From Alphaproteobacteria bacterium (GTDB lineage: Bacteria > Pseudomonadota > Alphaproteobacteria > Micavibrionales > Micavibrionaceae), in the NCBI GenBank assembly GCA_021775995.1, contig JAJFGS010000011.1:186001-250000 (forward strand): 64,000 nt of DNA. Direction: 5' to 3'. Within the stretch, counting starts at the first letter, position 1. Each line of letters opens with the position of its first letter. A model generated the notes under the pieces. The model was given only the letters and a program-made list of their open reading frames with translations. It was not told the origin of the DNA and did no database searches. Below are positions 17,782 through 41,936 of this stretch, piece by piece. Both the position numbers and the translations under genes were made by a program.

Positions 17782-17925
17782 GCTTGGAAAAAAACTTCTC
17801 TTAAAATCCGTTTTAATGATTTTTGGTAGGAATTCGTTAATCCTTTTGGGGTCATAATTAAAGGGTAGGCAAATTTTTTATGCCGACAAAACAAAGATAA
17901 AAATCTTTAGGGACCTTTGGGAGTT

Positions 17926-22682: not shown

Positions 22683-23272
22683 TTGTCTTGGGATTAACGG
22701 GGTCAATTGGCATGGGGAAAAGCACCGTTGCTTTAATGCTAGAAAAATTGGACTGTGCCGTTCATGATTCTGATAAGGCAGTGCGATTGGCTTTAAGTCC
22801 AAAAGGGCAGGCCTTTGAGGAGGTTGCTTTAACCTTTCCTGAAAGTTGGGATAGAAAAACGCATAATATTAAACGGGATGTTTTGGCAAAAATAATTTTT
22901 GATGATGATAATAAAAGGGAACAGTTAGAAAATATTCTTCATCCCGTTGTTCAAATATCACAAAAAGAATTTATTAAAAAACAGACACGATTAGGGCGTA
23001 AAATTGTTGTTTTAGAGATACCGCTTTTGTTTGAAACAGGCGCTGAAAGCCGTGTTGACTATACATTAGTAGCCAGTGCGCCCTATCATGTGCAACGACA
23101 TAGAGTATTAGGTCGTGCCAATATGACCGAGAAAAAATTTGAAGCCATTTTGGCAAGCCAAATGTCAGATAAAGAAAAATGCTCGCGGGCAGATTTTATA
23201 ATTCCTACTGGAGTGGGGATGGCATACACTAACCGTAGTTTAAAGCATATGTTGGAGGAAATTAATGCGTGA
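22679..23272 (+). CDS. coaE: Dephospho-CoA kinase
   Basis: CoaE phosphorylates dephospho-CoA in the last step of coenzyme A synthesis. The start at 22679 (MIVLGLTGSIGMGKST) overlaps the aroE stop as ATGA and places the P-loop at residues 4-15 as is usual; an upstream in-frame start at 22625 would add 18 residues inside aroE and is rejected. The 197-residue product shows the HDSDKAV and LEIPLLFE segments typical of the family. Confidence 0.94.
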   Translation: MIVLGLTGSIGMGKSTVALMLEKLDCAVHDSDKAVRLALSPKGQAFEEVALTFPESWDRKTHNIKRDVLAKIIFDDDNKREQLENILHPVVQISQKEFIKKQTRLGRKIVVLEIPLLFETGAESRVDYTLVASAPYHVQRHRVLGRANMTEKKFEAILASQMSDKEKCSRADFIIPTGVGMAYTNRSLKHMLEEINA

Positions 23273-23948
23273 AATTGTACTGGATACTGAAACAACGGGT
23301 ATGGATCCTGTCGATGGGCATAAGCTAGTTGAGATTGGTTGTGTGGAATTAGAAAATCATATTCCAACGGGGCGTACTTATCACCAATATATCAATCCTG
23401 AGCGCGATGTCCCTGCTGAAGCCGCAGCAGTGCATGGTTTAACACAAGAACGACTTAAAGATGAGCCAACTTTTGGGGAGATTGTTGGTGATTTTCTTGA
23501 TTTTTTAGGCACAGATTCAAAGCTCGTCATTCACAACGCAGAATTTGATATGAAATTTATCAATGCAGAACTTAAAATATTCGGCTTTCCACCACCAGAT
23601 AATAAACGCGTGATTGATACCTTAATGATGGCGCGTCAAAAATTTCCTGGTTCACCTGCTAATTTGGATGCGCTCTGTCGTCGGTTTAATATTGATAACT
23701 CAAACCGCACGCTCCACGGTGCCTTGCTCGATTCTGAATTGTTGGCAGAAGTTTATTTAGAGCTGCTTGGTGGACGTCAACGTGGTTTAGGCATTGAACA
23801 AGAAAAGAAAGCATCTTCGGAAGAAAAAATTGTGAAAATCGAACGTAAATTTCATGAACCAAGAGAGTTTTCGTTAAGTGATGATGAGAAAGACGCTCAT
23901 CAAAAAATGTTAGATGACATTAAAGCTCCAATTTGGAAAGAAAACTAA
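23265..23948 (+). CDS. dnaQ: DNA polymerase III epsilon subunit (3'-5' exonuclease)
   Basis: DnaQ is the proofreading subunit of the replicative polymerase. The 227-residue product has the DEDDh exonuclease motifs: LDTETTG at 6-12, VIHNAEFDMKF, and HGALLDSELLAEVY. A C-terminal tail presumably binds DnaE. It overlaps coaE by eight bases and is the last gene of the housekeeping unit. It converges with the giant gene, separated by a hairpin. Confidence 0.95.
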   Translation: MREIVLDTETTGMDPVDGHKLVEIGCVELENHIPTGRTYHQYINPERDVPAEAAAVHGLTQERLKDEPTFGEIVGDFLDFLGTDSKLVIHNAEFDMKFINAELKIFGFPPPDNKRVIDTLMMARQKFPGSPANLDALCRRFNIDNSNRTLHGALLDSELLAEVYLELLGGRQRGLGIEQEKKASSEEKIVKIERKFHEPREFSLSDDEKDAHQKMLDDIKAPIWKEN

Positions 23949-24001: not shown

Positions 24002-27000
24002 TTAAGCCGCTTTGTTTTTTGATTTGCGTGTTACAACCAATAACAAACCTAATCCACCGATAAAGCCAAGTCCACCAAACATCCCCAAGGTCATCAAAGG
24101 CGACCATGCAGCCATTGAAGGCTGGTTATCGTTGGAGAAGTGACCAACCTTGGCACCGATACTATCAATGGCTTTTTTCATTTCATCAAGCTCGGCACGA
24201 AGCGTATCATTTTCTGCTTTTAACTCTTTGGACGCTTCAATCATTGGTGCAATAAGACCAACATAGTTCACAGATTTTGTACCCATCTCATCCTCTGCTG
24301 TGCGGACAAGCTCAGGGAAAATCTCTTCCAATTCTTGTGCCATCACACCGAATTCTGTTTTGTCTTCTTTGTCGTCTTTCATTTTGAAAGAATAGGTATC
24401 AACGCTGGCAATTTTATCCAAGATCGAACCTTTCTTACTAAGTGGGACAATGTCTTTCTTCAAACGACGGTCAGATACGTCAGTGATGGTGCCTGTATAT
24501 TCGATGTCACCCAGAACATCTAGCTCAACGCCTGTGGCGGGAACTTGTCCGATACCAATCAGGTCATTAGACAGATCACCGTAAAGTGTACCACCGATAT
24601 TAAGTTCGTTGGCAGCTGTGGCAGAACTTTTTTCCTGACCACTTCCGATAATGATATTTAGGTTTCCGCTTGTCGCAGAGTCAGCCGTATTCTGACCGAT
24701 AAAGACGTTCTCGTCGCCTGTGGCAATCAGACCGGCCGCCTTACCAATATAAGTGTTCTTGACACCATTCGTCCCGTCCTTACCAGCATTGCTACCAACA
24801 TAAACATTTGACCGCCCTGTTGCTGAGGTACCAGCATTGGTGCCGACATAGACGCTATCGCTTACTGTCGCAGTCGAGCTACCGGCACCGGCACCCACAG
24901 CAGTAAGCTGAGTTCCTGTCGTATTGGCATCTCCGGCTTTCCAACCAATGAACACATTATAATCCACAGTATTGAGCAAACCTGCATCTACCCCAATCAT
25001 AACGGCGTTATCTCCCGTCTTCTGCGCACCACCAGCATTGCGTCCTATGGCCACATTGTCCGTCCCAGTTGTTAGTGCATCAAGCGCATAAGCACCGACA
25101 GCAACGTTTCCAGCACCAGTTGGTGCTGTTGAGCCGTCACCCTGACCGGCACTAAAACCAACAAAAACGTTTTCAAGAGTGGTGGTGGCATATTGTCCGG
25201 CTTTAGAGCCGACCATGGTATTAGAATCGCCAGTCGTGACATCCTGCCCGGATTCACCACCAAGGAAAGTGTTGTCGGCAGCCTGACCCAATGTAAGACC
25301 AGCATCATTACCCAGTGCAACGTTACGCGCAGAATTGGCGTTATTAGGCAGAGCATTCAAGGCACCAAAACCAATCCCGATATTGTTATCTGATAGCGTT
25401 TTACCTGTATCATTACCAGCACCTTCACCGATAAACATATTGTTCACAGATCCGCCGCCAGAAGCCCAGTCTGTTACGGCATCACTCAGATCATCCAGAG
25501 CACTTGCACCGCCGCCACAACCGGTACATGTGCCGGTAACCGTCAGGTCACCCGGTATGGTCACAAGACCGTTACCGTCAAGGCGCATGCGTTCCGCCAA
25601 CTGGTTATCAGAGGAATCAACCGTTGAGAATACAAGATCTGAAGGCCAGTCGCCGCCAGTATGTTGGCCTGACGCCTCTGCATGAATTCTAACAACAGCA
25701 TCTTCGTCGATTTGACCTGCCGTACCAGGCAGTGGTGCCGAAGAAGAAGATTCATTAGAACGGAAATCAATAATACCAAGAACTTCAGCATTCTGAACAT
25801 CCGTGTCCTCGTTCTCAATACCGAATGTTCCTCTGTCCGTTGTATCACCACCGACAGTCAACTGACTTCTAGGGCTGTTTTCGCTGACACCAACATGACC
25901 AGTTGCCCTGATGATAAGCTCCGGTAATGTGCCTTCCAGTTGTCCGTTACTTCCAACCGGCTGGGTATGGAATTCGAGTTGACCTGGCAGGGAGGTACCA
26001 GTGGGGGTGCCGTCCATTTCAGCCTGTATATAAGCCACGTGTCTGGCGCTGCCTCCATCGTAGGCTTTCATGGTCAGTTCGAATACAGTATCGCCGTCTG
26101 CCACTATTGTCGGTGCGGCGCTGGTTCCTCTATGTCTTTCACCAACAACTCTGGGATTCAGGAAATTTGTATCGTTGAACGTCGCAATTTTAACAGACGT
26201 TTCAGTATCACTAGCTATATGCAGCGCTTCATCAGGCGCATTCGTACCAATCCCGACATAGTTATTGGCAAGGTCACCATAAATCAGGTCACCGATATTC
26301 AGTTCATCATCGGCACCAACTGCGGATGTAATAACATCCTTACCGATTAAAATATTTCTGGAACCTGTGGTGAGAGCGCCTGTACCACCGCCAGCTTCAT
26401 TATAACCAGCACCGGAACCTATCAAAGTGTTATGCTCACCTGTTGAAATATCACTTCCTGCTCGTGCTCCCAATGCGGTGTTATCACTAGTTGTCACGTC
26501 ACCTAAAGCACCATGACCAATGGCTGTATTTCTCCACCCTGTCGAATTCGTATCGAGCGTCCATGCACCGAGACCCACATTGGCTTGACCGGATGTTACC
26601 AATTTACCGGATTGATGGCCGACAAAGACGCTGGCATTTATTGTTGTTATGACTTGTCCGGCCTGTTTACCGATAAGTGTGTTGTGGCTACCGCTTGTGA
26701 TATTCGCACCGGCATCGACACCCATAATAGTATTATTAGAACCTGTCGTAACGTCATGGAAAGCGCGGTGACCAATGGCAACGTTGGCTTGCCCTTCGGT
26801 AACGCCTGTCACACCACGACCTGCCTGGTAACCAAGATAAGTGTTATAACTGGCCGCATTGGTGGCGTGATGATACCCCCCCGCTCCATGGCCTATGTGG
26901 GTGTTTTCGATACCGGTTGTCAATTCTGCAGCGGCAATTTCACCCAAAACAGTGTTCCCTGTTCCGCTGGTCACTGCTGCGCCTGCTCCGGAGCCAAGGA

Positions 27001-30000
27001 ACATATTGTCGTTCGGATAATCTGTATCTGCATCGGAAAGGTCATCAATCGCGCTCGCACCGCCGCCGCCGAGGGTTTTAGTTAGAACCGTACCGCCTGA
27101 TTCTTTGGCTTTAATTACGATGTCGTCTGTGCCTTCAACTAGATAGATTGTTGCCTGATTGACGGCCAAATCACCATCTGCAACGGCTGTGGCCGGGGCA
27201 GGGAGGAAGATTTCTTTAGCGGACAGATCACCATAAATGAGGTTACCAATATTCAGTTCGTCGGAGACACCCGCAGCGGACACATCAACATTATTTCCGA
27301 GCAAGATGTTACCCGACCCCGTTGTAATATTGGCATCACCAGCTAACTGCCCGATGACGGTGTTACTGCCACCAGAGGTTAGAAGGTAACCAGCATTTTG
27401 ACCTACAAAGACGTTATCACCACCCGTATTCACAGCGCCACCAGCCGCATTGGAACCTATAAGCGTATTGTTGCCACCACCTGTTCCGGTCCAACCTACA
27501 GCCCGACCGACATAAGTATTACCTGTGCCACCTGTATTCTCTTGTCCAGCTAGATAACCGATATAGACGTTCCAGTCACCAGCCAAGTTTTTTTCTCCTG
27601 CGCTGGAACCTATAGAAACGTTCTGCTCACCAGCCGTATTCAAATTTCCAGCCCAACTACCCACAAAAACGTTATTTGCTCCAGTATTTGTTCCAGAATT
27701 ACCTGAATTCTCGCCAAGGAAAACATTTCCAGTGCCGCTGGCTGATGTGCCTGAGCTTTGCCCCAGATACATGCTGTCATTGGCGTAATCCGTAATCGCA
27801 TCACCGAGATCGTCGATGTCGCCAATGGCACCACCAGAATGTAGAAGGGTGCGCCATGTTGTACCTTCGGCATCGTAATATTCAAGTACGTCGGTAGAGG
27901 CTTCGGAGTTGTAACGTATAAGACCCGCTTCCGCCGCAGGACGTTGTGCATCGGTACCGATAGGCAGTACCAGACCTGATGTCCCTTCAACGGTGATCAC
28001 GCCTGCTGTCGTCAAGCTACCCGTAATCTTGTCACCAATATTGAGTTCGCTGCTGGCTGTAATCACACTCTTTTGAGCGCCCTTACCAATCAGAATATTG
28101 TTATCCCCGGTTGTAGCAAGGCTCCCGGCATACGCACCGATAGCGACATTATAATGCCCGGTTGAAATATGCCCGGCAGACATACCGAGATAAGTGTTTT
28201 CATCACCGTCACCACTATTTTCACCTGCAAAAGATCCAAAGAAGGCATTGTCGTTTCCGGTTGTACTCGATTTCCCAGCTAGCGCACCAAAATAAGCATT
28301 GCTTATCCCCGTATCCAAGCTACCAGCATTGGCACCGAAGTAAGCATTGTCGCCGCCCGTTATATTGGAACTACCGGCACCAACACCCATAAAAGTGTTG
28401 GAACTGCCCGACGTGTTAACTACTCCGGCATTCGAACCGACAAAGACATTCCAGCTAGCGGTATTCGCCGCACCGGCATTCGAACCAATCAGAACAGCTT
28501 CACTGCCCGTTGTCATCGCCGTACCGGCATTATAACCGAGTAAGACGTTGTCATCACCTGTGGTAAGAGCTACTCCTGCATTGGACCCAAGTACTGTGTT
28601 TTGAGCACCTGAGGTAATTGCGGCACCAGCTGAGCTACCAATCAGGGCGTTATCACTACCTGTACCAAAATCGGTATTGTTACTATCGCCAGCGGCGTTA
28701 CCAACATAGGTGTTGCGCGCACCAGTTGAGTTGTAACGCCCGGCGTTGTTACCCAAGAATGTATTCTGACCTGATGTAATAACATTACCCCCGGCATTCG
28801 TACCCATAAATGTATTTTGATCACCAGTCGTAATGTTGTCACCAGAACTAATACCAAGAACAGTGTTGAATTGTCCGCCGACAGCGATAGCTGCACCAGC
28901 TCCGTCACCCATAAAGATGTTATAGTCTGTTGTGTAATCTGTAACACCGTCGGACAGGTCATCGATTTCGGTGACGCCGCCGCCGCCAGCACAAGCCGCC
29001 CATGAGCCGCCGCTATCTTTACATTCGATCGCGCCGGCATTGTCACGAATACCGTAACCTGTGGTACCGTCTGTGTCGCCGAAATTGATGTAAGAGGAGG
29101 CATCCAGTCCGATATTTCCTGCTACATCTAGTAAATGGTCAGGTGTCGGATCGCCGATCCCAACCAGACCAGTCCCTCTGACCACGAAGAGATCAGCGGA
29201 ATCATCATTCACCTGTCCGTCAGAACGTATTCCCAAAAGGTCCCCTGTTACCAATTGACCAGAATTTGCCTGAATTACCACGCCATGCGTGGCCGTTGTG
29301 AGAGGTAAAACACCCACGCGTATTGAAGGCCAGTCCGATGGGTTTACGCCGCCAAACCATGTGTTTCTGGTGTCAACTTCCATCCACATATCGCCCGCGC
29401 CATTATCATAGAAGGCTTTAACCCCTCCTGTGGTACTTCCGTTGTTTTGTATCGAGAAAAGTTCTATATCTGCGGTCGCAGGATGATTAATCGTAAGTGC
29501 TCCTGTCGGTGCATTTGTACCGATACCGACATAGCCATTGGCAAGATCACCATAAATCAGGTTACCGATATTAAGTTCATCGCTGGCTGTAAGAGAGCTC
29601 TTCTCAACCGTGTTACCGATCAGAATATTGTCATCACCTGTTGTGGCAAGTTCACCGGCACCTTCACCGAGGAACACATTATTATTCCCTGTCGTGATTT
29701 TACCGGAGTCATTACCAATAAACACATTCGCACCACCACTTATACCCTGTCCAGAGCCAGAACCGATTGCGGTATTGGCGTTTCCTGTCGTTCTGTCTTT
29801 ACCAGCCTGATAACCCACATAAGTGTTACCATCAGCAGTTGTTTGCTCACCCGCAGATTTTCCGATAAAAGTATTAGTACTTCCTGTTGAATCTCGCCCT
29901 GTTTTATAACCGATGAAAACGTTAGAATTTCCACTTGTCACAAGATTACCAGCATCAGCACCGATGGCTGTGTTTTGGTATCCTGACGTCACCCCAACCA

Positions 30001-33000
30001 AAGCATTATAACCAATAGCTGTGTTTCTATCACAATCAGTAGCACCACAAACCGCATCCAGTGCAGTCAGGGCATTTACACCCAGCGCAACATTGTGCTG
30101 GCCTTGCGTGCCCGCCGTACCAGCAAGGTTCCCCATGAATATATTGTCTTCAGTTGTGTAATCCGTAATCGCATCGGTTAAGTCATCAATCGCGATGGCA
30201 CCACCAAGGCTGGCGAAGGTCGCGAAGGTGGAACAATCATCGGAATATTCTAGGCCGCTACCTTCCACATAACGGATACAACCTTGTGATCCAGCGGTGC
30301 CGTCATCATCTATCAGGAAGTCACCACCAACCAATGCCATGCGGTTTGCCGTGGTTAAATCATAACCGCTTTGGTCACCCATAAAAATAGCAAAGGAATT
30401 TGCACCAGAAATCTGCGGTGCCACGCCTGCGGGGTTACTCAGTCCAAACGCTACTGAATAATCACCCGTAGCCGTGGTTTGTACTTCCCGTCCGAATCCA
30501 AGACTGTAATCGCCGGCAGTTACAACATCCTGTCCTAACGCAAAACTATAAAGACCTACCGCATCCGTGGTACCAGAGCCCATTGCAAATCCATAGTTAC
30601 CGCTGGCGGTTGTACCATTCCCCATTGCTACGGAATATTGACCACCTGCTGTCGTGTTTTCCCCCATGGCAATAGCGGATCTGGCTGTGGCATCGGCACT
30701 CAAACCCATTGAAATCGTATAGGCATTGGTGGCTGTGCCGTTCTGTCCCAGTGCAACGCTGTAATTACCTGTGGCTTGCGAGCCACTGCCCATTGCGACA
30801 GCGGCCGTACCGCTGGCAGTCGTACTAGAGCCTACTGCAAAAGTGTTAGCGCCTCCGCCAGCTGTTGTGTTTTGTCCGAGGGCGACGCTGTAATTACCTG
30901 TGGCTTGCGAGCCACTGCCCATCGCGACGGCACCGACGCCGTTAGTGTCAACGCCCGCACCAAACGCAAAACTGTTATTACCAGTTGCCGATGTGGTTGA
31001 ATTCCCCATCGCAAAACTTTGCGTGCTGTTGGCGACGGCTTGTTCACCCATCGCAAAACTCTCGTCACCGAGAGCACTTGTTTGGTCGCCAAATGCAACA
31101 CTTTGGGGCCCGCTGGCGATTGTAGATATGCCCATCGCGACGCTACCGCTACCGCTGGCCGTTGCATTGTAACCTATACCGATACTGTAATTGCCGACAT
31201 TGGCATCATCCCACTGTGCCGCTGTGGCTTGACCCGCACGGAAAGAGGAGCTTTGAACATCAAAGTATAGTTGTGAATCTGAACCAGCGCTTGGTACCGA
31301 AGATGTACCTGTATAGGAACCTCTGATCAGGAGGTCACCGAGAAGGTCAAGCTCGGTTGTTGGGTTTGTTGTCCCAATCCCAACATGATGTACACCGGTG
31401 TTGTAATAAATGTCATCGCCAGCACCTGCTGTCCAGAGGCCGCTACCGCTACCAACTGTGACATTAATCAGGTCACCAGCAGAGTCTTTTGCTTTTAATT
31501 CAATTTCATCATTCGCAGCATCAACCCAGAATGTTACTTGTCCATTCGCGAGGTCGCCGTCTGGCGCAGCCGCTGCTGGTGCATCAAGGAAGACTTCGTT
31601 ATTCGCCAGATCACCATAGATCAGGTTACCGATATTGAGGTAATCGCTGGTCGCTGCCAGAGGTACGCCTACACTCTCACCAATCAAGATATTGCGGCTA
31701 CCGGTTCTGGCGGCACCATTATAAGCATAAGCTCCGAGTGCGACGTTATCATCACCCGAAGCGTTCTCTCCTGCCATCTTACCGATATAAGTATTATAAT
31801 CCCCAGCGCCTGAGTTTTCACCCGCCTCAGAACCGAAGAAGGAGTTATCAAGTCCTCCGACGCTGAGTCCGCCGGCATTGGCACCAAAGAAAGAGTTATG
31901 AGTTCCTGTTTCGGTCGCACCTGAATTAATACCAAAGTAAGAGTTATTACCTCCTGTTACGGCACTGTACCCAGCCGCCGCACCGACAAAGGTATTGTTT
32001 AACGCCGAAGTACTCGAAAACCCAGCATCATCACCTATATAGATGCTGTAGCTGGCTGTGTTTACAAGACCAGCGTTGGCACCTATGAGAACAGCACCAT
32101 CACCAGTTGTCATAGCTGCACCGGTGTTGTAACCCATGAAGACGTTGTCAGTACCAGTTGTGATCGCGGCACCACTCAGAGCACCAAGCGCTGTATTATT
32201 GGTACCGCTCGCACCTGCACCACCCAGCAACGCATTATAGCCAAGAGCAACATTGTGAGTATCGCCGCCTACGTTGAAATTCTTCATGGCTTCAAACCCT
32301 ACAGCCGTGGCGTTGTTTCCCAAATTCTCAAAAGCAGCCCATCGACCGACAGCAACATTAAAATTACCACCTACATTTTTTTCACCAGACGATTCCCCGA
32401 CATAGGTATTATTAGTCCCCGTCTCTATAAAGTAACCGGCATCCCGGCCCAACAATACATTATAACGACCCAGCGTCATATTTCGACCGGCCCGATGGCC
32501 GATAGCCACGTTGTTATCACACTCCGCAGCACCAGCACAAACTGTGTCCAGAGACATCAGGGCATCAACACCAAGTGCCACATTTTGGATGCCTGCTGTG
32601 GTCGCAACACCTGCGTTATTGCCGAGGAAAACATTGTTGCTCGTGTAATTTGCGTACGCATCAGTTAAGTCATTAATTTCGGTTGCACCGCCACCACTAC
32701 CGACGGTGACGTTAATCACATCACCGGCAGAGTCTTTGGCTTTTAATTCTATTTCATCATTGGCGGCATCAACCCAGAAGGTTAGTTGTCCATTGGCGAG
32801 GTCGCCATCTGGCGCAGCCGCTGCTGGTGCATCAAGGAAGACTTCGTTATTCGCAAGGTCACCATAAATCAAGTTACCGATATTAAGGTAATCACTTGTC
32901 GTATTCAGCGGCGGCTCAATATTATGCCCGATCAGGATATTGTCGTCGCCGGTCGCACCCGCGATATTGTAAGTATTCATACCGACAGCAACGTTACGGC

Positions 33001-36000
33001 TTCCTGATGCGTTTTGCCCAGCCGCTCCGCCAAGATACGTGTTTTCAATACCAGCACCATTATTTTCACCAGCAAAAGAACCAAAGAAAGAATTGTCAGC
33101 GCCGCCTACACTAGACTTCCCGGCCAGAGCGCCAAAGAAAGCATTACTGCCACCGGTTGCACTTAACCCTGCAGAGGCACCAAAATAGGCATTGTTTGCT
33201 GCTGCAATATTGGCGTTCCCGGCCTCTTGCCCGACAAAGGTATTCCATTGTCCAGAGGTATTGGCACCACCGGCATCTTTACCAACAAAGACACTCCAGC
33301 TTGCCGTATTTACATCTCCAGCCCCGGAACCAATCATAACGGCATTATCCCCCGTCGTCATGGCCGCACCGGCATTAAAACCAAGTAAGACGTTGTCACC
33401 ACCGGAGGTAAGAGCTGTTCCAGAATCTTTACCGATTATAACATTCTGTGTCGAGGTCAATGCCGCATCACCAGCATTGTGACCGATAATCACGTTGTCG
33501 ACGGCTGCGTTTGTTGCGCCTGTTCCAGCGTCATGACCAATGGAAACATTGCGTGATGCGGTGGCGGCTGTATAGGCTGCGCCCGTACCAATCGCTACAT
33601 TCTCAATACCCGTTGTATTACCGTTACCGGCATCAACACCGACAAAAACATTTTCCGTCCCTGTGGTTAGTTCCCGTCCAGCCCGCGAACCCAATGCCGT
33701 ATTGGCATCACCTGTCAGGCTGTTTCCTGTAAGCGATTGCCCGGCCTTTGTTCCGATTAAGGTGTTGTTATCAGCACCGTCATCCAACCATTGACCAGCC
33801 TGATCACCTATGGCGACGTTTTCGATACCGTCACTGGTTACGGAACCCGCCGATACACCAATCAAGGTGTTCGAGTCACCTGTTGTTAAATTGTACCCTG
33901 CATCCGCTCCCATAATTGTATTGGAAGTCCCTGTACTTAAGACACGGCCGGCATTTTTACCCACGGCAGTGTTGGAAGTACCTGTTGCAGCACCGTCAGC
34001 GCCGGCTGTTTCACCAAGGAACAGATTCTGTTTCGCGTAATCTGTCGCTCCATCGCCGAGATCGTCGATGTCGCCAATCGCTCCACCAGAAGAGAGTAGG
34101 GTGCGCCATGTTGTGCCTTCGGCATCGTAATATTCAATGACATCCGTAGAGGCTTCGGAGTTGTAACGTATAAGACCCGCTTCCGCCGCCGGACGTTGCG
34201 CATCCGTACCGATGGGCAGAACCAGAGCAGATGTACCTTCAATTGTAAGTACGCCTGCGGTGACTATACTACCTGTAATTTTGTCACCGATATTCAGTTC
34301 GTTGGCGGCTGTGGCGGCTGTTGGCTCTATATCATAGCCGATCAGAATATTGTCTGATCCACTTGTAATTGTGCTACCGGTCGAATAACCGAGTGCTACG
34401 TTTTGTGCCCCGGTGTTATTGGCGGGCGTGGCATCGCCGCCATACAGAGCAAAGTTACCGAGCGCAACATTCGAGGATGACACCATGCGGCGTCCGGCCT
34501 GAAGCCCCATAAAGACGTTGCTGTTGCCGTCTGCGATATTTTCACCGGCCTGATAGCCCATGATTGTATTTTCCTCACCCGTGGCTAAATTAAGCCCTGC
34601 ATTTGATCCGACAAATGTGTTGTTCTGAGGAATATTAACACCGCCAACCGTCACACCGTTTTGTCCGGCCCGGAAGCCGAGATAGGTATTGTTACTGCCT
34701 GTATCATTGTCGTCACCGGCTTCACGCCCGATAAAGGTATTGGCACCACCTGTCGTATTGGACTGACCCGCCCAGTCACCGACAAATGTGTTGCTGTCAC
34801 CGGATAGATTGTTTAAGCCAGCCCAAGCTCCGACAAAAACGTTCCAGTCACCAGTTTCATTCTGATAACCGGATGCTTCTCCAACAAAAACATTTCGAAT
34901 ACCGGAATTGGCAACGGCGGTACTTTCATCATAACCGGCTAAGTGGCCGATATAGACGTTTTGACTGTTTGTGGCATCACGACCCGCCAGTGTTCCCAAA
35001 ATAACACTCTCACCTCCTGTGGCCATATCCCGCCCAGCATCTTCCCCGATAAAGAGGTTGTTTTCTCCGCTGGTGATAGATGCACCAGCATTCTGACCCA
35101 TAAAGATGTTGGAACTGGTGTAATTCGCGGCTGCATCACCGAGATCGTCGATGTCGCCAATGGCACCACCAGAATGTAGAAGGGTGCGCCATGTTGTGCC
35201 TTCGGCATCATAATATTCAATAACGTCAGTAGAGGCTTCGGAGTTGTAACGCAGAAGACCTGCTTCCGCCGCAGGACGTTGTGCATCGGTACCGATAGGC
35301 AGTACCAGAGCGGATGTCCCTTCAATTGTAAGTACGCCTGCCGCAGTCATGTCACCGGTGATTTTATCACCAATATTCAGTTCATCGTTGGCACCAACGG
35401 CAGTCGTAAGAATATCCCTACCGATTAAAATGTTGCGAGAACCTGTTGTCAGTGCGCCCACTCCAGCACCGGCGACATCATAACCAGCACCCTGACCAAT
35501 CAAAATATTGTCATCACCAGATGAAACACTGTAACCAGTGTACTCACCGAGGAACGTATTATTATCCGCGCCATCATAGTTTCGCCCGGCGTACTTACCA
35601 ATAAAGGTGTTGTTGTCTCCGAGACCACTACCGGCACCAAGGCTGCCACCAGCCAAATAACCCAGATACGTATTGTCACTCCCTAAAGACGCATCCCCGG
35701 CAAAATGACCGACATAAGTATTTTTGTCCCCTGTTAGGTTTTTTTGACCGGCTTGGTTACCGATATAAGTATTGTTGGTTGCGGTTGTATCCTCACCAGC
35801 TCTATAGCCAATAATGGTGCTACCATCTTGCGTCGTAAGTGATTGTCCTGCAGAATCCCCGATAAGGGTGTTGTCGCTTCCTGTTGTAAGGCTCAGGCCT
35901 GCATCTCTACCCATCATGATGTTCCGGCTTCCTGTTGTTAAAGCCGCACCGCTATCCATACCAAAAGCGGTGTTGCCCGTACAATCATAGTTTGGGGCTC

Positions 36001-39000
36001 CCGTAACACAACCGCTGTTCATAGCCGCTAGAGCACCGGAACCGAGCCCAGTATTGTCTATACCATCGGTACCGTTACCAACACCTGTGCCAAGAAACAT
36101 GTTGTCATTCGGATAATCTGTATCTGCATCGCCAAGGTCGTCGATGTCACCAATAGCCCCACCAGAAGAGAGTAGGGTGCGCCATGTTGTACCTTCGGCA
36201 TCGTAATATTCAATAACGTCAGTAGAGGTTTCGGAGTTGTAACGTATAAGACCTGCTTCCGCCGCAGGACGTTGCGCATCCGTACCGATGGGCAGTACCA
36301 GAGCGGATGTACCTTCAACTGTCAGCACGCCTGCTGCAAGTAAACCACCAGTTATTTTATCACCAATATTCAGTTCGTCATCGGCTGTGGCGGAAGACGC
36401 ATCGGTTCCCGAACCAATTATAATATTTCTGTCACCAGTTGTTGTTGCATTACCAGCGCTGTCACCAATAAAGGTATTTTCAAACCCTTCTGTGTTTAGG
36501 AATCCTGCGTCACCACCTAAGAAGACATTCTTGTTACCTGTGGTGTTTGAAGCACCCGTATCATACCCCAAAAAGACGTTATGGAAGCCGGTCGTGCTGG
36601 CAACACCTGCCCATGTTCCTACATAGGTATTGTCTTCCCCAGTTGTGTTTTTATTACCAGCACCGTCACCAATAAAGGTGTTTTCACTACCTGTATTTAG
36701 TGGGTCAGCACCAGCCGTATTACCAACAAAGGTATTCGAGGTTTGCGTCGTCAGGGCTAGACCAGCATCCTTACCGATCATGATATTGCCGCTGGCTGTT
36801 GTATGCGCCACACCAGCATTGTAGCCCATGAACACGTTGTCATCACCTGTTGTGATGGCCGTTCCGGCCAGAGCACCGATGGCCGTGTTTTGAACACCAG
36901 TTGAGAGGCCGGAAGCTCCTGATAATGCCTTGGGTCCGATAGCAACATTATAACCATTGACAGCACCGGGCGTGAAGTAGCGCAGTGCTTCATCTCCAAA
37001 TGCCGCATTATTGGAAGACAAAACGCTGTCTTCTAGGGCGTTCCGTCCCATGGCGACGTTAGAATTCCCTGTCGTGTTGGAATTTAAGGTCTGGGCACCA
37101 ACTGCAATGTTGCTGCCTCCGGTCGTATTGGCGCGCAGTACATTCTTACCGACCCCGGTGTTTTTTCCGCCCGTGGTGTTGGACTCCAAGGTCTTATAAC
37201 CAATCGCCGTGTTCCAGTCCCCGATTGTGTTGGCAATCAGGGTCTCAAAACCTATAGCGGTGTTCGCATCACACTCAGTTCCTGAGCCTCCTGTACAATT
37301 ACCCGTCGTAGCCAGACCGGCCAGCGCGCTTTCGCCTAACGCAACATTACCCGCGCCATCTGTAGAGGCAGGTCCGGCATTCAGACCCAGAAACATGTTG
37401 TCGTTGGTCACATAATCTGTCTGCGCATCTGTTAAGTCATCAATGGCAATTGCACCTATGGCAGTTGCACAATCAACCCATTCAAAATTTGTCGTGCCGT
37501 GTTCATAGGTCAGACAGAATTCATCCTCACCAACGCCAGGGTCGGTGGTGGAGTTTAACATTGTTACTTCGATTGTATCCGCGCCGATTGTGAATGTACC
37601 GTCTGCGGCAATAGTTGCGTCACCAGATAGGGCCACGGGGTTGAAGTTGGTGGCATCATTAACCAGTATGTGTCCAGCGGTGTTCGTTGTCGCCATAAAC
37701 AGACCATCATCGGGAATGGTCAGGTCGCCGGTTACAGTTGCATCACGACCGATTGTGACATCGCGTCCCGTGATGACGTCGCCATCAGTGTCGATAATGA
37801 AAGATGTTGCGCCATCATCGACTTGGAAGGAGCGGCCTGCGCCTAAATTTTCAACATAAAACGGAATGGCTGTGGAGGTGGCGAGTGTTGAAGCACTAAT
37901 AATAAATTGGTCACTTGCGCCGCCGCCTGAAGAGGCTGTATTTTCACCGAAAGCCATACCTGTCTCGGCTGCTGTGAGTTGCCAGTTCCATGTTTGGTTA
38001 TTGGCACCGCTGTTAATTGTGTTATCCGCTGTTGCGGCGGTGATGTCTGAAAGGGCACTACCACCACCAACATCTGTGGAGACAAAACAGTTGGCTAAGT
38101 TTTCATCACAATATTTATAGGCACCAACTTTTGGATCGGTTGATGTTGTGCCGATATCTCCGAAGAAAATATCTCCAATGTTTAGTTCTTCATCCGCCGC
38201 CGCGCCACTGGCATCAATGCCACTACCAATAAGGATGTTTGAACTTCCTGTCGTTGTGGCTTCACCAGCCAGATAACCAAGGAAGGTGTTAGCATTCCCA
38301 TCTGTGATTGAATCCCCAGCATAGGCACCTATAAGCGTGTTTTGCACCCCGTCATTCATGCCTGTACCAGCTTGAGCACCCAGAGCTGTGTTCTCTGTTC
38401 CGACGCCGCCACCTACACCATAAAGGGCATAGTGACCGACAGCTGTGTTGTCGGTATCGCCAGCGGCTACATTTTCATGCAACGCTCTTGAGCCAATCGC
38501 CGTTGAATGGTTGCCAACTCCATTAAATCCTGCCAGATAACCGAAATAAGAATTCTCTTCACCAGTTAAATTATTTTCACCAGCTGATTCACCGACAAAT
38601 GTATTCTGAATTGCTGTTGTGGAGAGACGCCCAGCATCTTGTCCGAGTAAAACGTTACTGGAACCAGTCGTAAGCGATAGACCTGAATTTGCACCTAGAG
38701 CCGTATTATCAATACAATCCCAATTTGGAGCACCTGTAACACAACCACTATTCAAGGCCGCTAGAGCGCCGTCGCCAAGTCCAGTGTTGCGTAAGCCGTC
38801 GGTACCGTTACCAACACCTGTGCCAAGGAACATGTTGTCATTCGGATAATCTGTATCTGCATCAGTTAAGTCATCAATAGCGATGGCGCCTGCGGCGACG
38901 GAACAGCTCACCCATTCAAAATTCGTTGTGGCATGTTCATAGGTTAGGCAATATTCATCCTCACCAACGCCAGGGTCAGTGGTAGAGTTCAGCATTGTTA

Positions 39001-41161
39001 CTTCAATTGTATCTGCGCCGATAGTCAGTGTGCCGTCGGAGGCAATAGTGGCGTCACCAGACAGAGCCACGGGGTTAAAGTTTGTTGCGTCATTGACCAG
39101 TATGTGTCCAGCAGTGTTCGTTGTCGCCATAAACAGACCATCATCAGGAATGGTTAGATCACCTGTTACAGTCGCATCGCGGCCGATTGTGACATCACGA
39201 CCCGTGATGACATCGCCATCGGTGTCGATAATGAAAGATGTTGTACCATCATCCACTTGGAAGGAGCGGCCTGCACCTAAATTTTCAACATAAAACGGAA
39301 TGGCCGTAGAGGTTGCCAGCGTTGAAGCACTAACAATAAACTGGTCGCTGACGCCACCACCTGCAGAGGCTACGTTTTCACCGAAGGCCATACCTGTTTC
39401 GCCCGTTGTCAGTTGCCAGTTCCATGTCTGGTTATTCGCTGCGTTGTTAATTGCGTTATCCGCTGTTGCGGCTGTGATATCGTCCAGATCAATGCCACCA
39501 CCTGCGCCTGTAATATCTGCGGCGGTTTGGTCACAATCAATCGCGGTACCATCGGACCGGCAATAACGGCCAGCTGTTGTTATGAAGTCAACTTGCGGGT
39601 CTGTCTCGGTTGCGGACAGGTCTGCAGTACACTCAACCTTTGTTCCAGTTGATAGACAAATTTTCCCTGCCGCACCTAATGGCTTAACGATGTAAGGGTC
39701 AGTTTCGTTTGCACCAGTAGCACCAACAATAGCAGCAGTCATGGATTGTAGATTTACTGCATCCAAATCACCTGTTGGAGTTACTCTAGGATCTGCAACA
39801 AGTGTAACACCACTTGTCATGTCTAATGTTCCAGTAATATCTACTGCTCCAGTAATAGATGTGTCGCCTGTAATTGTAACTGTATCTGTTCCCGCATCAC
39901 CTAATATTGTATTGCCGGGGACGTTAAGATCATTCAGTGTTAATGTACCACCAACACTTAAATCAACATCAACGATAGCATCACCAGTAATGCGTGTGTC
40001 ATCAGTTATGCCAGTACCTAATGTTGATGCCCCACCAACACTTAAATCGACATCAACAATTGCATCACCAGTAATAGTTGTATCATCGCCTACGCCAGTA
40101 CCTAGGGTTGATGCGCCGCCAACACCCAATGTTCCCGCAATAGTGGCATAACCTTTAATATCCGTTAAATCACCAATAGCGTCTCCTAGGGTTGATATTC
40201 CGTCAACGTCTAGATTTCCACCTGTCGCCAAGTTTCCAGCGGTGAGGGTAGTGGTAACAGTCATGTTATTGGCAGCCATATCTGCCGTTGTTGAGATGTC
40301 TGCTGTTGTTGCGATGGTACTAGCGGAAGTAACAGGGCTTAAAAATTCTACGTTTGCACTACCTGTTAATTCAGAAATAAAGTCTGTTTTAACACTAGGA
40401 ATTTCCCCTGTACCCGTTGTGCCGTCACCAATTTTTAGAAGTTGTAGGGCGGCATCAAATTGAAATTGTGGATCTGTTCCATCTGAAACTTCTAATTTTT
40501 TTTCAATTTCAGCAATAGTTGGATCTCCAGATTTTAGATTCCAAAGACCTGCGGCGATAGCCCCTGCGTCAGCAAAGGTGTAGCCCATAATAAGGTCGTC
40601 AGAACCTGACGGTTTATCAAGTAAGGTGGCTGGATCGTCATTACAGCTTGTCTGAAAAACACCATCTGGACCAGAAGAGATAACGGCCAAAACATAACCT
40701 GTTTCTGTTGCGTTACCTTGTTCAAATCCAACACCTGCACCACAGGCCGCATCGTCGATTGTTGTTCCATGATCCCATGTACAATAGCCGTATTTCATAC
40801 CCCAAGGGTCTTGGGTTGAGGCACCAATAGAGGCAGGAATTTCACCACCACCAGTAAGTCCAGCTATCGCCGCGCCATAGGGTATAGGCTCAATCGTTCC
40901 ATCACTATCACAGTCATTGGGAGATTGTGATGCGGCGGCAATCAGGGCAAGCTTACCCGTCGCAATCATATTATTTTCGGCAATGGTTCGTTTTGTCACA
41001 ATGGACATGGTACGAACAGGGCCCTTCATAATGGTCATTGTCGCCGCGCCAAGAATACCAACCATTCCGACGGCACCGAAAAGCATGAGGAAAATATTCC
41101 CTGCTTCAGCTATTCTACGACCGAGATGTTTTTGTTTTTTATTTATATGAGTATCGCCCAT
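24002..41161 (-). CDS. Giant repeat protein with peptidase S74 chaperone domain (adhesin/fibre-like)
   Basis: 5,719 residues in one open frame, start ATG at 41161 with GGGG eight bases upstream. Residues 1-45 have a basic head and a hydrophobic segment (IFLMLFGAVGMVGILGAA). Residues about 60-200 resemble a pseudopilin body (DPWGMKYGY, later ISSGPDG, and four or more cysteines). Then come thousands of residues of short repeats of the type NTFIGxxAGxxTTG, broken by IDDLTDA linkers and larger recurring modules. Residues about 3320-3590 are YadA-head-like (SVAMG, SFAFG, YSVALGQ). Residues from about 5563 form a peptidase S74 intramolecular chaperone with SDRRLKK, carrying the Ser and Lys of the self-cleaving pair, then a coiled coil. 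A last hydrophobic segment and the tail RKSKNKAA end the protein. S74 domains trimerise and mature fibres and phage spikes, so a trimeric surface or envelope fibre is likely. The gene is GC-richer than its surroundings and splits the usual dnaQ-secB neighbourhood. Confidence 0.8.
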   Translation of the reverse strand: MGDTHINKKQKHLGRRIAEAGNIFLMLFGAVGMVGILGAATMTIMKGPVRTMSIVTKRTIAENNMIATGKLALIAAASQSPNDCDSDGTIEPIPYGAAIAGLTGGGEIPASIGASTQDPWGMKYGYCTWDHGTTIDDAACGAGVGFEQGNATETGYVLAVISSGPDGVFQTSCNDDPATLLDKPSGSDDLIMGYTFADAGAIAAGLWNLKSGDPTIAEIEKKLEVSDGTDPQFQFDAALQLLKIGDGTTGTGEIPSVKTDFISELTGSANVEFLSPVTSASTIATTADISTTADMAANNMTVTTTLTAGNLATGGNLDVDGISTLGDAIGDLTDIKGYATIAGTLGVGGASTLGTGVGDDTTITGDAIVDVDLSVGGASTLGTGITDDTRITGDAIVDVDLSVGGTLTLNDLNVPGNTILGDAGTDTVTITGDTSITGAVDITGTLDMTSGVTLVADPRVTPTGDLDAVNLQSMTAAIVGATGANETDPYIVKPLGAAGKICLSTGTKVECTADLSATETDPQVDFITTAGRYCRSDGTAIDCDQTAADITGAGGGIDLDDITAATADNAINNAANNQTWNWQLTTGETGMAFGENVASAGGGVSDQFIVSASTLATSTAIPFYVENLGAGRSFQVDDGTTSFIIDTDGDVITGRDVTIGRDATVTGDLTIPDDGLFMATTNTAGHILVNDATNFNPVALSGDATIASDGTLTIGADTIEVTMLNSTTDPGVGEDEYCLTYEHATTNFEWVSCSVAAGAIAIDDLTDADTDYPNDNMFLGTGVGNGTDGLRNTGLGDGALAALNSGCVTGAPNWDCIDNTALGANSGLSLTTGSSNVLLGQDAGRLSTTAIQNTFVGESAGENNLTGEENSYFGYLAGFNGVGNHSTAIGSRALHENVAAGDTDNTAVGHYALYGVGGGVGTENTALGAQAGTGMNDGVQNTLIGAYAGDSITDGNANTFLGYLAGEATTTGSSNILIGSGIDASGAAADEELNIGDIFFGDIGTTSTDPKVGAYKYCDENLANCFVSTDVGGGSALSDITAATADNTINSGANNQTWNWQLTAAETGMAFGENTASSGGGASDQFIISASTLATSTAIPFYVENLGAGRSFQVDDGATSFIIDTDGDVITGRDVTIGRDATVTGDLTIPDDGLFMATTNTAGHILVNDATNFNPVALSGDATIAADGTFTIGADTIEVTMLNSTTDPGVGEDEFCLTYEHGTTNFEWVDCATAIGAIAIDDLTDAQTDYVTNDNMFLGLNAGPASTDGAGNVALGESALAGLATTGNCTGGSGTECDANTAIGFETLIANTIGDWNTAIGYKTLESNTTGGKNTGVGKNVLRANTTGGSNIAVGAQTLNSNTTGNSNVAMGRNALEDSVLSSNNAAFGDEALRYFTPGAVNGYNVAIGPKALSGASGLSTGVQNTAIGALAGTAITTGDDNVFMGYNAGVAHTTASGNIMIGKDAGLALTTQTSNTFVGNTAGADPLNTGSENTFIGDGAGNKNTTGEDNTYVGTWAGVASTTGFHNVFLGYDTGASNTTGNKNVFLGGDAGFLNTEGFENTFIGDSAGNATTTGDRNIIIGSGTDASSATADDELNIGDKITGGLLAAGVLTVEGTSALVLPIGTDAQRPAAEAGLIRYNSETSTDVIEYYDAEGTTWRTLLSSGGAIGDIDDLGDADTDYPNDNMFLGTGVGNGTDGIDNTGLGSGALAAMNSGCVTGAPNYDCTGNTAFGMDSGAALTTGSRNIMMGRDAGLSLTTGSDNTLIGDSAGQSLTTQDGSTIIGYRAGEDTTATNNTYIGNQAGQKNLTGDKNTYVGHFAGDASLGSDNTYLGYLAGGSLGAGSGLGDNNTFIGKYAGRNYDGADNNTFLGEYTGYSVSSGDDNILIGQGAGYDVAGAGVGALTTGSRNILIGRDILTTAVGANDELNIGDKITGDMTAAGVLTIEGTSALVLPIGTDAQRPAAEAGLLRYNSEASTDVIEYYDAEGTTWRTLLHSGGAIGDIDDLGDAAANYTSSNIFMGQNAGASITSGENNLFIGEDAGRDMATGGESVILGTLAGRDATNSQNVYIGHLAGYDESTAVANSGIRNVFVGEASGYQNETGDWNVFVGAWAGLNNLSGDSNTFVGDWAGQSNTTGGANTFIGREAGDDNDTGSNNTYLGFRAGQNGVTVGGVNIPQNNTFVGSNAGLNLATGEENTIMGYQAGENIADGNSNVFMGLQAGRRMVSSSNVALGNFALYGGDATPANNTGAQNVALGYSTGSTITSGSDNILIGYDIEPTAATAANELNIGDKITGSIVTAGVLTIEGTSALVLPIGTDAQRPAAEAGLIRYNSEASTDVIEYYDAEGTTWRTLLSSGGAIGDIDDLGDGATDYAKQNLFLGETAGADGAATGTSNTAVGKNAGRVLSTGTSNTIMGADAGYNLTTGDSNTLIGVSAGSVTSDGIENVAIGDQAGQWLDDGADNNTLIGTKAGQSLTGNSLTGDANTALGSRAGRELTTGTENVFVGVDAGNGNTTGIENVAIGTGAAYTAATASRNVSIGHDAGTGATNAAVDNVIIGHNAGDAALTSTQNVIIGKDSGTALTSGGDNVLLGFNAGAAMTTGDNAVMIGSGAGDVNTASWSVFVGKDAGGANTSGQWNTFVGQEAGNANIAAANNAYFGASAGLSATGGSNAFFGALAGKSSVGGADNSFFGSFAGENNGAGIENTYLGGAAGQNASGSRNVAVGMNTYNIAGATGDDNILIGHNIEPPLNTTSDYLNIGNLIYGDLANNEVFLDAPAAAAPDGDLANGQLTFWVDAANDEIELKAKDSAGDVINVTVGSGGGATEINDLTDAYANYTSNNVFLGNNAGVATTAGIQNVALGVDALMSLDTVCAGAAECDNNVAIGHRAGRNMTLGRYNVLLGRDAGYFIETGTNNTYVGESSGEKNVGGNFNVAVGRWAAFENLGNNATAVGFEAMKNFNVGGDTHNVALGYNALLGGAGASGTNNTALGALSGAAITTGTDNVFMGYNTGAAMTTGDGAVLIGANAGLVNTASYSIYIGDDAGFSSTSALNNTFVGAAAGYSAVTGGNNSYFGINSGATETGTHNSFFGANAGGLSVGGLDNSFFGSEAGENSGAGDYNTYIGKMAGENASGDDNVALGAYAYNGAARTGSRNILIGESVGVPLAATSDYLNIGNLIYGDLANNEVFLDAPAAAAPDGDLANGQVTFWVDAANDEIELKAKDSAGDLINVTVGSGSGLWTAGAGDDIYYNTGVHHVGIGTTNPTTELDLLGDLLIRGSYTGTSSVPSAGSDSQLYFDVQSSSFRAGQATAAQWDDANVGNYSIGIGYNATASGSGSVAMGISTIASGPQSVAFGDQTSALGDESFAMGEQAVANSTQSFAMGNSTTSATGNNSFAFGAGVDTNGVGAVAMGSGSQATGNYSVALGQNTTAGGGANTFAVGSSTTASGTAAVAMGSGSQATGNYSVALGQNGTATNAYTISMGLSADATARSAIAMGENTTAGGQYSVAMGNGTTASGNYGFAMGSGTTDAVGLYSFALGQDVVTAGDYSLGFGREVQTTATGDYSVAFGLSNPAGVAPQISGANSFAIFMGDQSGYDLTTANRMALVGGDFLIDDDGTAGSQGCIRYVEGSGLEYSDDCSTFATFASLGGAIAIDDLTDAITDYTTEDNIFMGNLAGTAGTQGQHNVALGVNALTALDAVCGATDCDRNTAIGYNALVGVTSGYQNTAIGADAGNLVTSGNSNVFIGYKTGRDSTGSTNTFIGKSAGEQTTADGNTYVGYQAGKDRTTGNANTAIGSGSGQGISGGANVFIGNDSGKITTGNNNVFLGEGAGELATTGDDNILIGNTVEKSSLTASDELNIGNLIYGDLANGYVGIGTNAPTGALTINHPATADIELFSIQNNGSTTGGVKAFYDNGAGDMWMEVDTRNTWFGGVNPSDWPSIRVGVLPLTTATHGVVIQANSGQLVTGDLLGIRSDGQVNDDSADLFVVRGTGLVGIGDPTPDHLLDVAGNIGLDASSYINFGDTDGTTGYGIRDNAGAIECKDSGGSWAACAGGGGVTEIDDLSDGVTDYTTDYNIFMGDGAGAAIAVGGQFNTVLGISSGDNITTGDQNTFMGTNAGGNVITSGQNTFLGNNAGRYNSTGARNTYVGNAAGDSNNTDFGTGSDNALIGSSAGAAITSGAQNTVLGSNAGVALTTGDDNVLLGYNAGTAMTTGSEAVLIGSNAGAANTASWNVFVGSNAGVVNTSGSSNTFMGVGAGSSNITGGDNAYFGANAGSLDTGISNAYFGALAGKSSTTGNDNAFFGSFAGENSGDGDENTYLGMSAGHISTGHYNVAIGAYAGSLATTGDNNILIGKGAQKSVITASSELNIGDKITGSLTTAGVITVEGTSGLVLPIGTDAQRPAAEAGLIRYNSEASTDVLEYYDAEGTTWRTLLHSGGAIGDIDDLGDAITDYANDSMYLGQSSGTSASGTGNVFLGENSGNSGTNTGANNVFVGSWAGNLNTAGEQNVSIGSSAGEKNLAGDWNVYIGYLAGQENTGGTGNTYVGRAVGWTGTGGGNNTLIGSNAAGGAVNTGGDNVFVGQNAGYLLTSGGSNTVIGQLAGDANITTGSGNILLGNNVDVSAAGVSDELNIGNLIYGDLSAKEIFLPAPATAVADGDLAVNQATIYLVEGTDDIVIKAKESGGTVLTKTLGGGGASAIDDLSDADTDYPNDNMFLGSGAGAAVTSGTGNTVLGEIAAAELTTGIENTHIGHGAGGYHHATNAASYNTYLGYQAGRGVTGVTEGQANVAIGHRAFHDVTTGSNNTIMGVDAGANITSGSHNTLIGKQAGQVITTINASVFVGHQSGKLVTSGQANVGLGAWTLDTNSTGWRNTAIGHGALGDVTTSDNTALGARAGSDISTGEHNTLIGSGAGYNEAGGGTGALTTGSRNILIGKDVITSAVGADDELNIGDLIYGDLANNYVGIGTNAPDEALHIASDTETSVKIATFNDTNFLNPRVVGERHRGTSAAPTIVADGDTVFELTMKAYDGGSARHVAYIQAEMDGTPTGTSLPGQLEFHTQPVGSNGQLEGTLPELIIRATGHVGVSENSPRSQLTVGGDTTDRGTFGIENEDTDVQNAEVLGIIDFRSNESSSSAPLPGTAGQIDEDAVVRIHAEASGQHTGGDWPSDLVFSTVDSSDNQLAERMRLDGNGLVTIPGDLTVTGTCTGCGGGASALDDLSDAVTDWASGGGSVNNMFIGEGAGNDTGKTLSDNNIGIGFGALNALPNNANSARNVALGNDAGLTLGQAADNTFLGGESGQDVTTGDSNTMVGSKAGQYATTTLENVFVGFSAGQGDGSTAPTGAGNVAVGAYALDALTTGTDNVAIGRNAGGAQKTGDNAVMIGVDAGLLNTVDYNVFIGWKAGDANTTGTQLTAVGAGAGSSTATVSDSVYVGTNAGTSATGRSNVYVGSNAGKDGTNGVKNTYIGKAAGLIATGDENVFIGQNTADSATSGNLNIIIGSGQEKSSATAANELNIGGTLYGDLSNDLIGIGQVPATGVELDVLGDIEYTGTITDVSDRRLKKDIVPLSKKGSILDKIASVDTYSFKMKDDKEDKTEFGVMAQELEEIFPELVRTAEDEMGTKSVNYVGLIAPMIEASKELKAENDTLRAELDEMKKAIDSIGAKVGHFSNDNQPSMAAWSPLMTLGMFGGLGFIGGLGLLLVVTRKSKNKAA
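27804..28010 (-). repeat. Intragenic module copy 1 (LPIGTDAQRP module)
   Basis: About 200 bp encoding the recurring module with LPIGTDAQRPAAEAGL, EYYDAEGTTWRTLL and AIGDIDDLGDA. Three further near-identical copies lie at about 34056, 35137 and 36131. It marks internal duplication in the giant gene. Confidence 0.85.
31440..31640 (-). repeat. Intragenic LDAPAAAAPDGD module, copy 1
   Basis: Encodes LIYGDLANNEVFLDAPAAAA followed by FWVDAANDEIELKAKDSAGD. A near-identical copy lies at about 32700-32900, roughly 1.26 kb away. Confidence 0.8.
32700..32900 (-). repeat. Intragenic LDAPAAAAPDGD module, copy 2
   Basis: Second copy of the module at 31440-31640, differing by scattered, mostly synonymous bases. 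Confidence 0.8.
34056..34258 (-). repeat. Intragenic module copy 2 (LPIGTDAQRP module)
   Basis: Second near-identical copy of the roughly 200-bp module. It differs at few bases and reads TLLSSGG at the variable spot. Confidence 0.85.
35137..35340 (-). repeat. Intragenic module copy 3 (LPIGTDAQRP module)
   Basis: Third copy, with LLRYNSE and TLLHSGG variants; the neighbouring repeats on each side differ from those around the other copies. Confidence 0.85.
36131..36332 (-). repeat. Intragenic module copy 4 (LPIGTDAQRP module)
   Basis: Fourth copy, with the variant RYNSETSTD; followed by a distinct repeat array. Confidence 0.85.
37437..38050 (-). repeat. Intragenic 0.6-kb duplication, copy 1
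   Basis: Encodes a block with GMAFGEN, YVENLGAGRSFQVDDG, DVITGRDVTIGRDATVTGDL and DPGVGEDE. A copy of very high visible identity lies 1,434 bp away (478 codons) at about 38872-39482, indicating in-frame duplication of a large unit. Confidence 0.9.
38872..39482 (-). repeat. Intragenic 0.6-kb duplication, copy 2
   Basis: Partner of the block at 37437-38050. Most visible differences are synonymous third-position changes, so the protein block is nearly invariant. Confidence 0.9.
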
Positions 41162-41215
41162 GCTTATTGCCCCTTGATTAAACAGCTCTCCACATTAAAT
41201 TTTACGCAAAAATAG

Positions 41216-41408: not shown

Positions 41409-41936
41409 TTAACTATCAGAATTTTCATCAGTTTCCGTTTTTTCGCCAAAACGCTGTAAATACATTGCTCGGAAGTTCACCATGCCCATTTGAAGGGGAA
41501 TAAAGCCGCCTGCTTGCGTTGCATTGGCTAAAAGCATACGGATAAAGGGGAAAAGCATGCGGGGAACTTCGACAAAAAGGATTGGGTGGTGCTTTTTGTC
41601 ATCCATACCCTGTATTGATACGGTCGCTCCGTATTTGATTTCGGCAATAAACATGACCTTGTCGTCACGTTTTGCACTGGCATTAACGGTTAAAACGACC
41701 TCATAGAAATGTTCTTCAGCGGCGTCTTCTAGCTCTAATTTACGCATATCAACACTAATATCGATGTCAACTGCAGGGGCCGTATCGACTTTTTGAAGAA
41801 TTTCGGGTGAATTCGGGTTTTCAAAAGACATATCTTTCAAATATTGCGCATGAATAACCACTGGGGTTTGCGGGACAGTACCTATATTTTCATTATTTTC
41901 AGGTGTATCCTTAGATTTATCCTTTTTCTTCGCCAT
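41409..41936 (-). CDS. secB: Protein-export chaperone SecB
   Basis: SecB keeps preproteins unfolded and hands them to SecA. The 175-residue product has the SecB core (AQYLKDMSFENPNSP, then EVVLTVNASAK, IQYG-like AEIKYGATV, and the FPFIRMLLANATQAGGFIPLQM helix). It carries a charged N-terminal extension (MAKKKDKSKDTPENNEN) and a short acidic tail. In alphaproteobacteria it commonly neighbours dnaQ and fxsA; here the giant gene intervenes on the dnaQ side. Confidence 0.95.
   Translation of the reverse strand: MAKKKDKSKDTPENNENIGTVPQTPVVIHAQYLKDMSFENPNSPEILQKVDTAPAVDIDISVDMRKLELEDAAEEHFYEVVLTVNASAKRDDKVMFIAEIKYGATVSIQGMDDKKHHPILFVEVPRMLFPFIRMLLANATQAGGFIPLQMGMVNFRAMYLQRFGEKTETDENSDS

Follow-up and report, generated by a model that had tools for sequence, protein, structure and literature searches.

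A 5,719-residue modular-pilin-like putative adhesin with a membrane-tethered S74 domain in a Micavibrio relative

A single gene on the minus strand (24002-41161) of a 64,000-nucleotide stretch of alphaproteobacterial DNA (herein the window) encodes a protein of 5,719 residues that combines a pilin-like N-terminal domain, approximately 200 adhesin-like repeats, and a peptidase S74 domain followed by a membrane segment. We think it reasonably likely that this protein is a giant tip adhesin resembling the modular pilins, whose membrane-tethered S74 domain would cut itself and so free the fibre. Bacterial proteins larger than this one exist, and size alone is not the point.

The original prediction of an uninterrupted frame of 5,719 codons had the coordinates and length right; the strand is minus. 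Internal stops, which it had named as a sign against the gene, were looked for and number 0 in this frame versus ∼294 predicted from base composition; the other five frames contain 157 to 524 across the same interval. The genome record holds the same open frame at 5,730 codons, and an RBS-like AAGGGG, read directly from the sequence, lies upstream of the ATG (41170-41175, minus strand). Protein-level (purifying) selection acts on the frame, because dN/dS is low in comparison with the nearest relative, genome G005 (0.134/1.2, ∼0.11, for the N-terminal domain; 0.30/1.95, ∼0.15, for S74 and the tail), and because the paralogous 17-codon repeats diverge mostly at codon position 3. Exact DNA repeats of at least 80 nt are absent from the gene, a few 60-mers recur, and TRF finds three short arrays only; misassembly is therefore unlikely, as judged from a draft assembly in 15 contigs.

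The gene lies between secB upstream (41409-41936, minus strand) and dnaQ downstream (23265-23948, plus strand, convergent with it). Its insertion between two genes that are otherwise neighbours had been proposed from this DNA, and a search around dnaQ and secB in related genomes bears this out: the two are directly adjacent in a sister species of the same genus (G006), which lacks the family domain of the giant gene, and also in several other genera, where a family member, if there is one, lies elsewhere. In genomes of the source genus the family gene adjoins secB, at times in a tandem array of two or three. Where tested, the neighbours of the giant gene are ordinary genes of the chromosome. 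Elsewhere in the window, DotD, DotC/TraI-type, and DotB-type genes stand in a row (54055-57898), followed by a gene whose product weakly matches the secretin N-terminal domain (STN); by sequence, the row looks like the core of a Dot/Icm system in a relative of Micavibrio. The M. aeruginosavorus genome paper, in contrast, reported no type IV secretion system (PMC3189940). At 17917-20335, two open reading frames overlap in different frames, each with a match to DUF6782 (putative metallopeptidase); they are either one frameshifted gene or an overlap.

The protein starts with a positively charged, prepilin-type leader (residues 1-21; 41099-41161, minus strand) ending in a Gly that is kept in 71 of 71 aligned relatives. 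The leader runs into a hydrophobic segment (residues 17-45 by hydropathy), so that the features expected of a pilin, a charged leader with Gly or Ala at its end and then 20 to 25 hydrophobic residues, are present. Beyond Gly21 the family reads N-[IV]-F-x-x-L-F-G-A-V-A-x-V-G-x-L, with the helix register (A11-x12-x13-G14-x15-L16) matching that of type IV pilins; Glu at mature position 5, frequent but not universal among type IV pilins, occurs in 0 of the 71 sequences, and tip-capping pilin subunits likewise lack Glu5 (PMC10191384). The domain itself (residues 22 to ∼235; 40457-41098, minus strand) was delineated by alignments and an AlphaFold2 model (pLDDT 85), which has one 57-residue helix (residues 22-78) and then a small β domain, the long α1 helix and β domain expected of a pilin fold; the β part carries DPWGxxYGYC and SxGPDG motifs. 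The original prediction of membrane segments at both ends holds by hydropathy (17-45 and 5689-5712), with the qualification that the N-terminal one belongs to the pilin-like domain and is not a plain anchor.

Comparison of the N-terminal model with the PDB using Foldseek gave PulG as the top match, without significance (E 0.4). VIA-align of the Foldseek candidates placed GspG, PulG, EpsG, or PilA1 at all of ranks 1 through 8 with moderate Z-scores, all below 8 (5.5 to 7.1); after these eight pseudopilins and type IV pilins, the next row falls to Z 2.2. At the profile level, an hhalign comparison with GspG, covering the leader and the N-terminal helix, gave E 9e-5 (probability 59), and the best hmmsearch match against the PDB was EpsG over the DPWG region, a weak one (E 0.15) with photosystem II D1 close behind. 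The profile of the domain also picks up small pilin-like proteins in relatives (E 4e-10 to 1e-5), which are homologous to a pilin-like protein of the source genome's own pilus cluster; that protein matches the profile at E 2e-3. Neither Pfam nor NCBIfam has a family covering the N-terminal ∼240 residues (Pfam is empty over residues 1-300 at E ≤ 1). As the N_methyl profile (PF07963, SPIII) marks four other genes of the genome and not this one, we call the protein modular-pilin-like rather than filing it as a pilin. The model and alignments point to a pilin/pseudopilin-like domain.

The middle of the protein had been described as short glycine-rich repeats; repeats are present, and more exactly they are 17-residue units (N-[TV]-x-[ILV]-G-x-x-A-G-x-x-x-T-T-G-x-x) grouped into 11 larger modules of 230 to 460 residues, each with an IDDL-like motif at the start, 17-residue units, and LNIG at the end. 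The modules, all on the minus strand and 29 to 55% identical to one another in protein sequence, are module 1 (residues 761-1036; 38054-38881), module 2 (1239-1671; 36149-37447), module 3 (1672-2002; 35156-36148), module 4 (2003-2363; 34073-35155), module 5 (2364-2827; 32681-34072), module 6 (2828-3240; 31442-32680), module 7 (3657-3890; 29492-30193), module 8 (4065-4447; 27821-28969), module 9 (4448-4703; 27053-27820), module 10 (4704-4990; 26192-27052), and module 11 (5221-5545; 24527-25501). Modules 6 and 7 are separated by a region with 14-residue YadA-head repeats (residues ∼3319-3578; 30428-31207, minus strand), part of which was scanned and matches Pfam YadA_head (PF05658; E 6.2e-27, stretch around residues 3155-3470).

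In the predicted structure of module 3 (pLDDT 83), strands recur at intervals of ∼17 residues, and its best fold matches include the trimeric adhesin heads of CbpF (Z 15.5), YadA (Z 12.5), and BoaA (Z 11.4). Based on this one module, the 17-residue repeats are predicted to fold as YadA/CbpF-like β-rolls. With ∼200 coils of ∼0.48 nm each, the fibre would, by a rough estimate, measure ∼100 nm or more. The top Foldseek match of the module in the PDB, GlmU, was not significant (E 8.5e-3) and needed re-alignment with VIA; kinship with GlmU, LpxD, or LpxA was rejected, as the VIA rows reflect the general shape of a left-handed β-helix. Similar repeats are found in phage and giant-virus fibre proteins.

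Near the C terminus, where an S74 domain had been predicted correctly, Pfam places a peptidase S74/intramolecular chaperone domain at residues ∼5563-5620 (24302-24475, minus strand; E 1.3e-18) with the catalytic dyad SDxxxK (Ser5563 and Lys5568). A coiled-coil-like stretch follows (residues ∼5640-5671; 24149-24244, minus strand; read by eye, with weak Pfam coil-type matches), then a membrane segment defined by hydropathy (residues 5689-5712; 24026-24097, minus strand) and a basic tail. Within the family, 19 distinct proteins keep the dyad, and in 16 of these a membrane segment follows S74. Being located past the predicted self-cleavage site, this segment would not be part of the mature fibre: if S74 cuts at Ser5563, the fibre would be set free, and S74, the coil, and the membrane segment would stay behind. 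No YadA-type outer-membrane anchor was found in the C-terminal 165 residues (Pfam, E ≤ 1).

Of the order's 126 genomes with a completeness of 80% or more, 84 carry homologs of the conserved N-terminal domain (∼240 residues). A sample of 398 genomes from across the phylum yields the domain once, in the source genome; a scan of genome contigs finds scattered copies in Rhizobiales, and the named records with the domain are largely Micavibrio or alphaproteobacterial metagenome-assembled genomes. Complete family genes range from a few hundred residues up to the giant gene, the longest found, and other long frames have 5,544, 5,186, 5,041, and 5,036 codons. In G005, the N-terminal domain is 79% identical and both ends are the same, yet the protein has only 1,059 residues and lacks the long 17-residue arrays; the giant size is therefore an expansion of the middle. 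The C termini of the family vary among S74, DUF1554/C-type lectin, and RCC1, and the ends other than S74, as read from the sequences of relatives, argue for recognition tips.

Several loci of the family have features of their own. Locus L101 (5323-12154) holds three tandem family genes of ∼740 residues with S74 and no C-terminal membrane segment. In Stella vacuolata (L113) and Brucella gallinifaecis (L140), family genes lie near apparent genes for a serine recombinase and relaxase/coupling proteins (assigned by eye), which suggests a mobile element and recalls the PilV shufflon. The two tandem Stella genes (L113:9752-15111) encode an additional conserved, membrane-like stretch ahead of the pilin-type leader.

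The source genome encodes two prepilin peptidases, several assembly ATPases, and a PilB/PilC/PilT/PilU-type set. On contig C5, a cluster comprises an A24 peptidase, a secretin, an ATPase, a platform protein, and two pilin-like proteins without Glu5. No pilus gene adjoins the giant gene in this genome; a small pilin-like gene lies within ∼6 kb of a family gene at L110 and L101, the only two loci found in a search for pilus genes beside family genes, which makes the evidence from gene neighbourhoods thin. We tentatively tie the giant protein to the C5 cluster on the basis of the pilin similarity and these two loci. Inside the pilus gene cluster, a 525-residue protein (L143:8341-9918) has ASH/HYDIN-like Ig domains.

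In the mechanism that we favour, the protein would be inserted into the inner membrane by its pilin-type N terminus and again by its C-terminal membrane segment, and the chain between them would fold in the periplasm as a β-roll fibre (as predicted for one module), probably a trimer templated by S74. Once folded and trimeric, the fibre would be cut by S74 at Ser5563, where the dyad is present, and so come off its C-terminal anchor with the tip exposed; prepilin peptidase would trim the leader at Gly21. The pilin end may then be set at a pilus tip, and the fibre pushed out, by machinery of the type IV pilus type, for which the C5 cluster with its secretin, ATPase, and platform protein is the most likely candidate, although we know of no precedent for so large a fibre passing through a secretin. 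Since relatives can carry a different C-terminal domain where this protein has S74, the family would amount to a repertoire of interchangeable adhesive tips that probably serve to contact surfaces, prey, or other cells. Some named members of the Micavibrio group prey on other bacteria, and by analogy with these relatives, prey attachment by the giant fibre is plausible. The available portion of the Micavibrio genome paper reports pili and does not mention the giant-adhesin family (PMC3189940). The original proposal of a long fibre for attachment to prey, host, or surface is thus well supported as to an S74-type β fibre (β-roll fold, S74 motif, lectin-type tips in relatives); it had missed the pilin-like N-terminal domain, the order-wide family with variable tips, and the position of the C-terminal membrane segment past the predicted cleavage site.

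The same chain could also be a long trimeric surface fibre unconnected with pili, its N-terminal helix serving only as an inner-membrane signal anchor and its export following another route, like that of the Bdellovibrio MAT proteins or of autotransporters. MAT proteins share the logic of S74 or non-S74 tips on a β fibre (PMC10769870), the β-roll modules match trimeric autotransporter heads, and no pilus gene stands beside the giant gene. We nevertheless regard this as unlikely: the N-terminal domain has a pilin-like leader and predicted fold and shares homology with small pilin-like proteins, the C-terminal 165 residues contain no YadA-type anchor by Pfam, and the start described for MAT proteins (signal peptide plus a β domain of ∼130 residues) is not seen. 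That the nearest folds, GspG, PulG, and EpsG, are pseudopilins of type II secretion would fit a pilin end joining a short pseudopilus, with a fibre that serves secretion or stays largely periplasmic. This is less probable still, given a source genome without any T2SSG pseudopilin match, lectin-like tips in relatives that point to outside ligands, and a fibre that would exceed the periplasm many times in size.

Descent from a phage, as a remnant or cargo in which a tail fibre gene was captured in the chromosome, would account for the matches of S74 and the repeats to phage tail families and to phage or giant-virus fibre models. We consider it very improbable and dropped it on account of the ordinary chromosomal genes that flank the gene where tested, the pilin-like start of the protein, the spread of the family through the order (84 of 126 genomes), and purifying selection on the gene. 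A length produced by wrongly joined repeats, conceivable for a repetitive protein in a 15-contig draft, has next to no likelihood in our estimate: the modules are too divergent (29 to 55% identity), no exact repeat reaches 80 nt, and independent genomes hold frames of 4,765 to 5,544 codons from the same family. This reading was likewise dropped.

Among known systems, the closest to our preferred modular-pilin-like adhesin are the modular type IV pilins and the Bdellovibrio MAT fibres. In the modular pilins (S. sanguinis PilB/PilC; CofB, TcpB), adhesive modules are likewise grafted behind an N-terminal pilin module, and a tip location is proposed; CofB and TcpB are trimeric, and a survey of these proteins lists a pilin-plus-S74 architecture and, as its most extreme multidomain case, a protein of 860 residues (PMC8179133). 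Unlike them, the giant protein has 5,719 residues, no N_methyl signature, no Glu5, and a membrane segment after S74. The MATs are predator surface fibres of ∼1,000 residues with a signal peptide and a β domain of ∼130 residues, and they share with it SDxxxK and S74 or alternative tips, including a C-type lectin fold (PMC10769870); the giant protein differs in its pilin-like base, C-terminal membrane segment, and ∼5-fold length, as judged from the published description of the MATs. The order of payload, S74/ICA, and membrane segment is that of the eukaryotic membrane proteins MYRF and MrfA. In MYRF, self-cleavage frees the payload, and the dyad (S578/K583) has Ser and Lys five residues apart (PMC3742443), the spacing of Ser5563/Lys5568; the payload of MYRF is a transcription factor, whereas here it would be a fibre. 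PilV of the IncI plasmid thin pilus, subject to the shufflon, is a minor pilin with a constant N terminus and a variable adhesive C terminus (PMC9045228); the N-terminal 300 residues of the giant protein match no Pfam family, hence not the shufflon N-terminal domain, and no inverting segments were seen. With the YadA/CbpF trimeric autotransporter heads the protein shares left-handed β-roll repeats; in place of an autotransporter anchor, which was not found, it has an inner-membrane pilin-like base. Our literature search on giant pilin-type adhesins found no paper that contained all of its terms.

We raise, as a tentative possibility, that these parts make up a new composite organelle across the Micavibrio order, in which a pilus machine would extrude single fibres, each chain thousands of residues long, and the membrane-tethered S74 would be a checkpoint releasing only correctly trimerised fibres from the inner membrane. 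One polypeptide would thus unite the base of a pilin, the folding of a phage fibre, and the release of MYRF, with exchangeable tips. The prey-recognition fibres of Bdellovibrio were reportedly described only in 2024. The Micavibrio order, a separate group that includes predators, suggests another solution, phage-like fibres on a pilin base. The giant adhesin offers a testable route for the folding, checking, and release of chains thousands of residues long. Its conserved N-terminal domain, so far without a Pfam or NCBIfam entry, gains an annotation, and the family supplies well-defined candidates for attachment proteins in Micavibrio.
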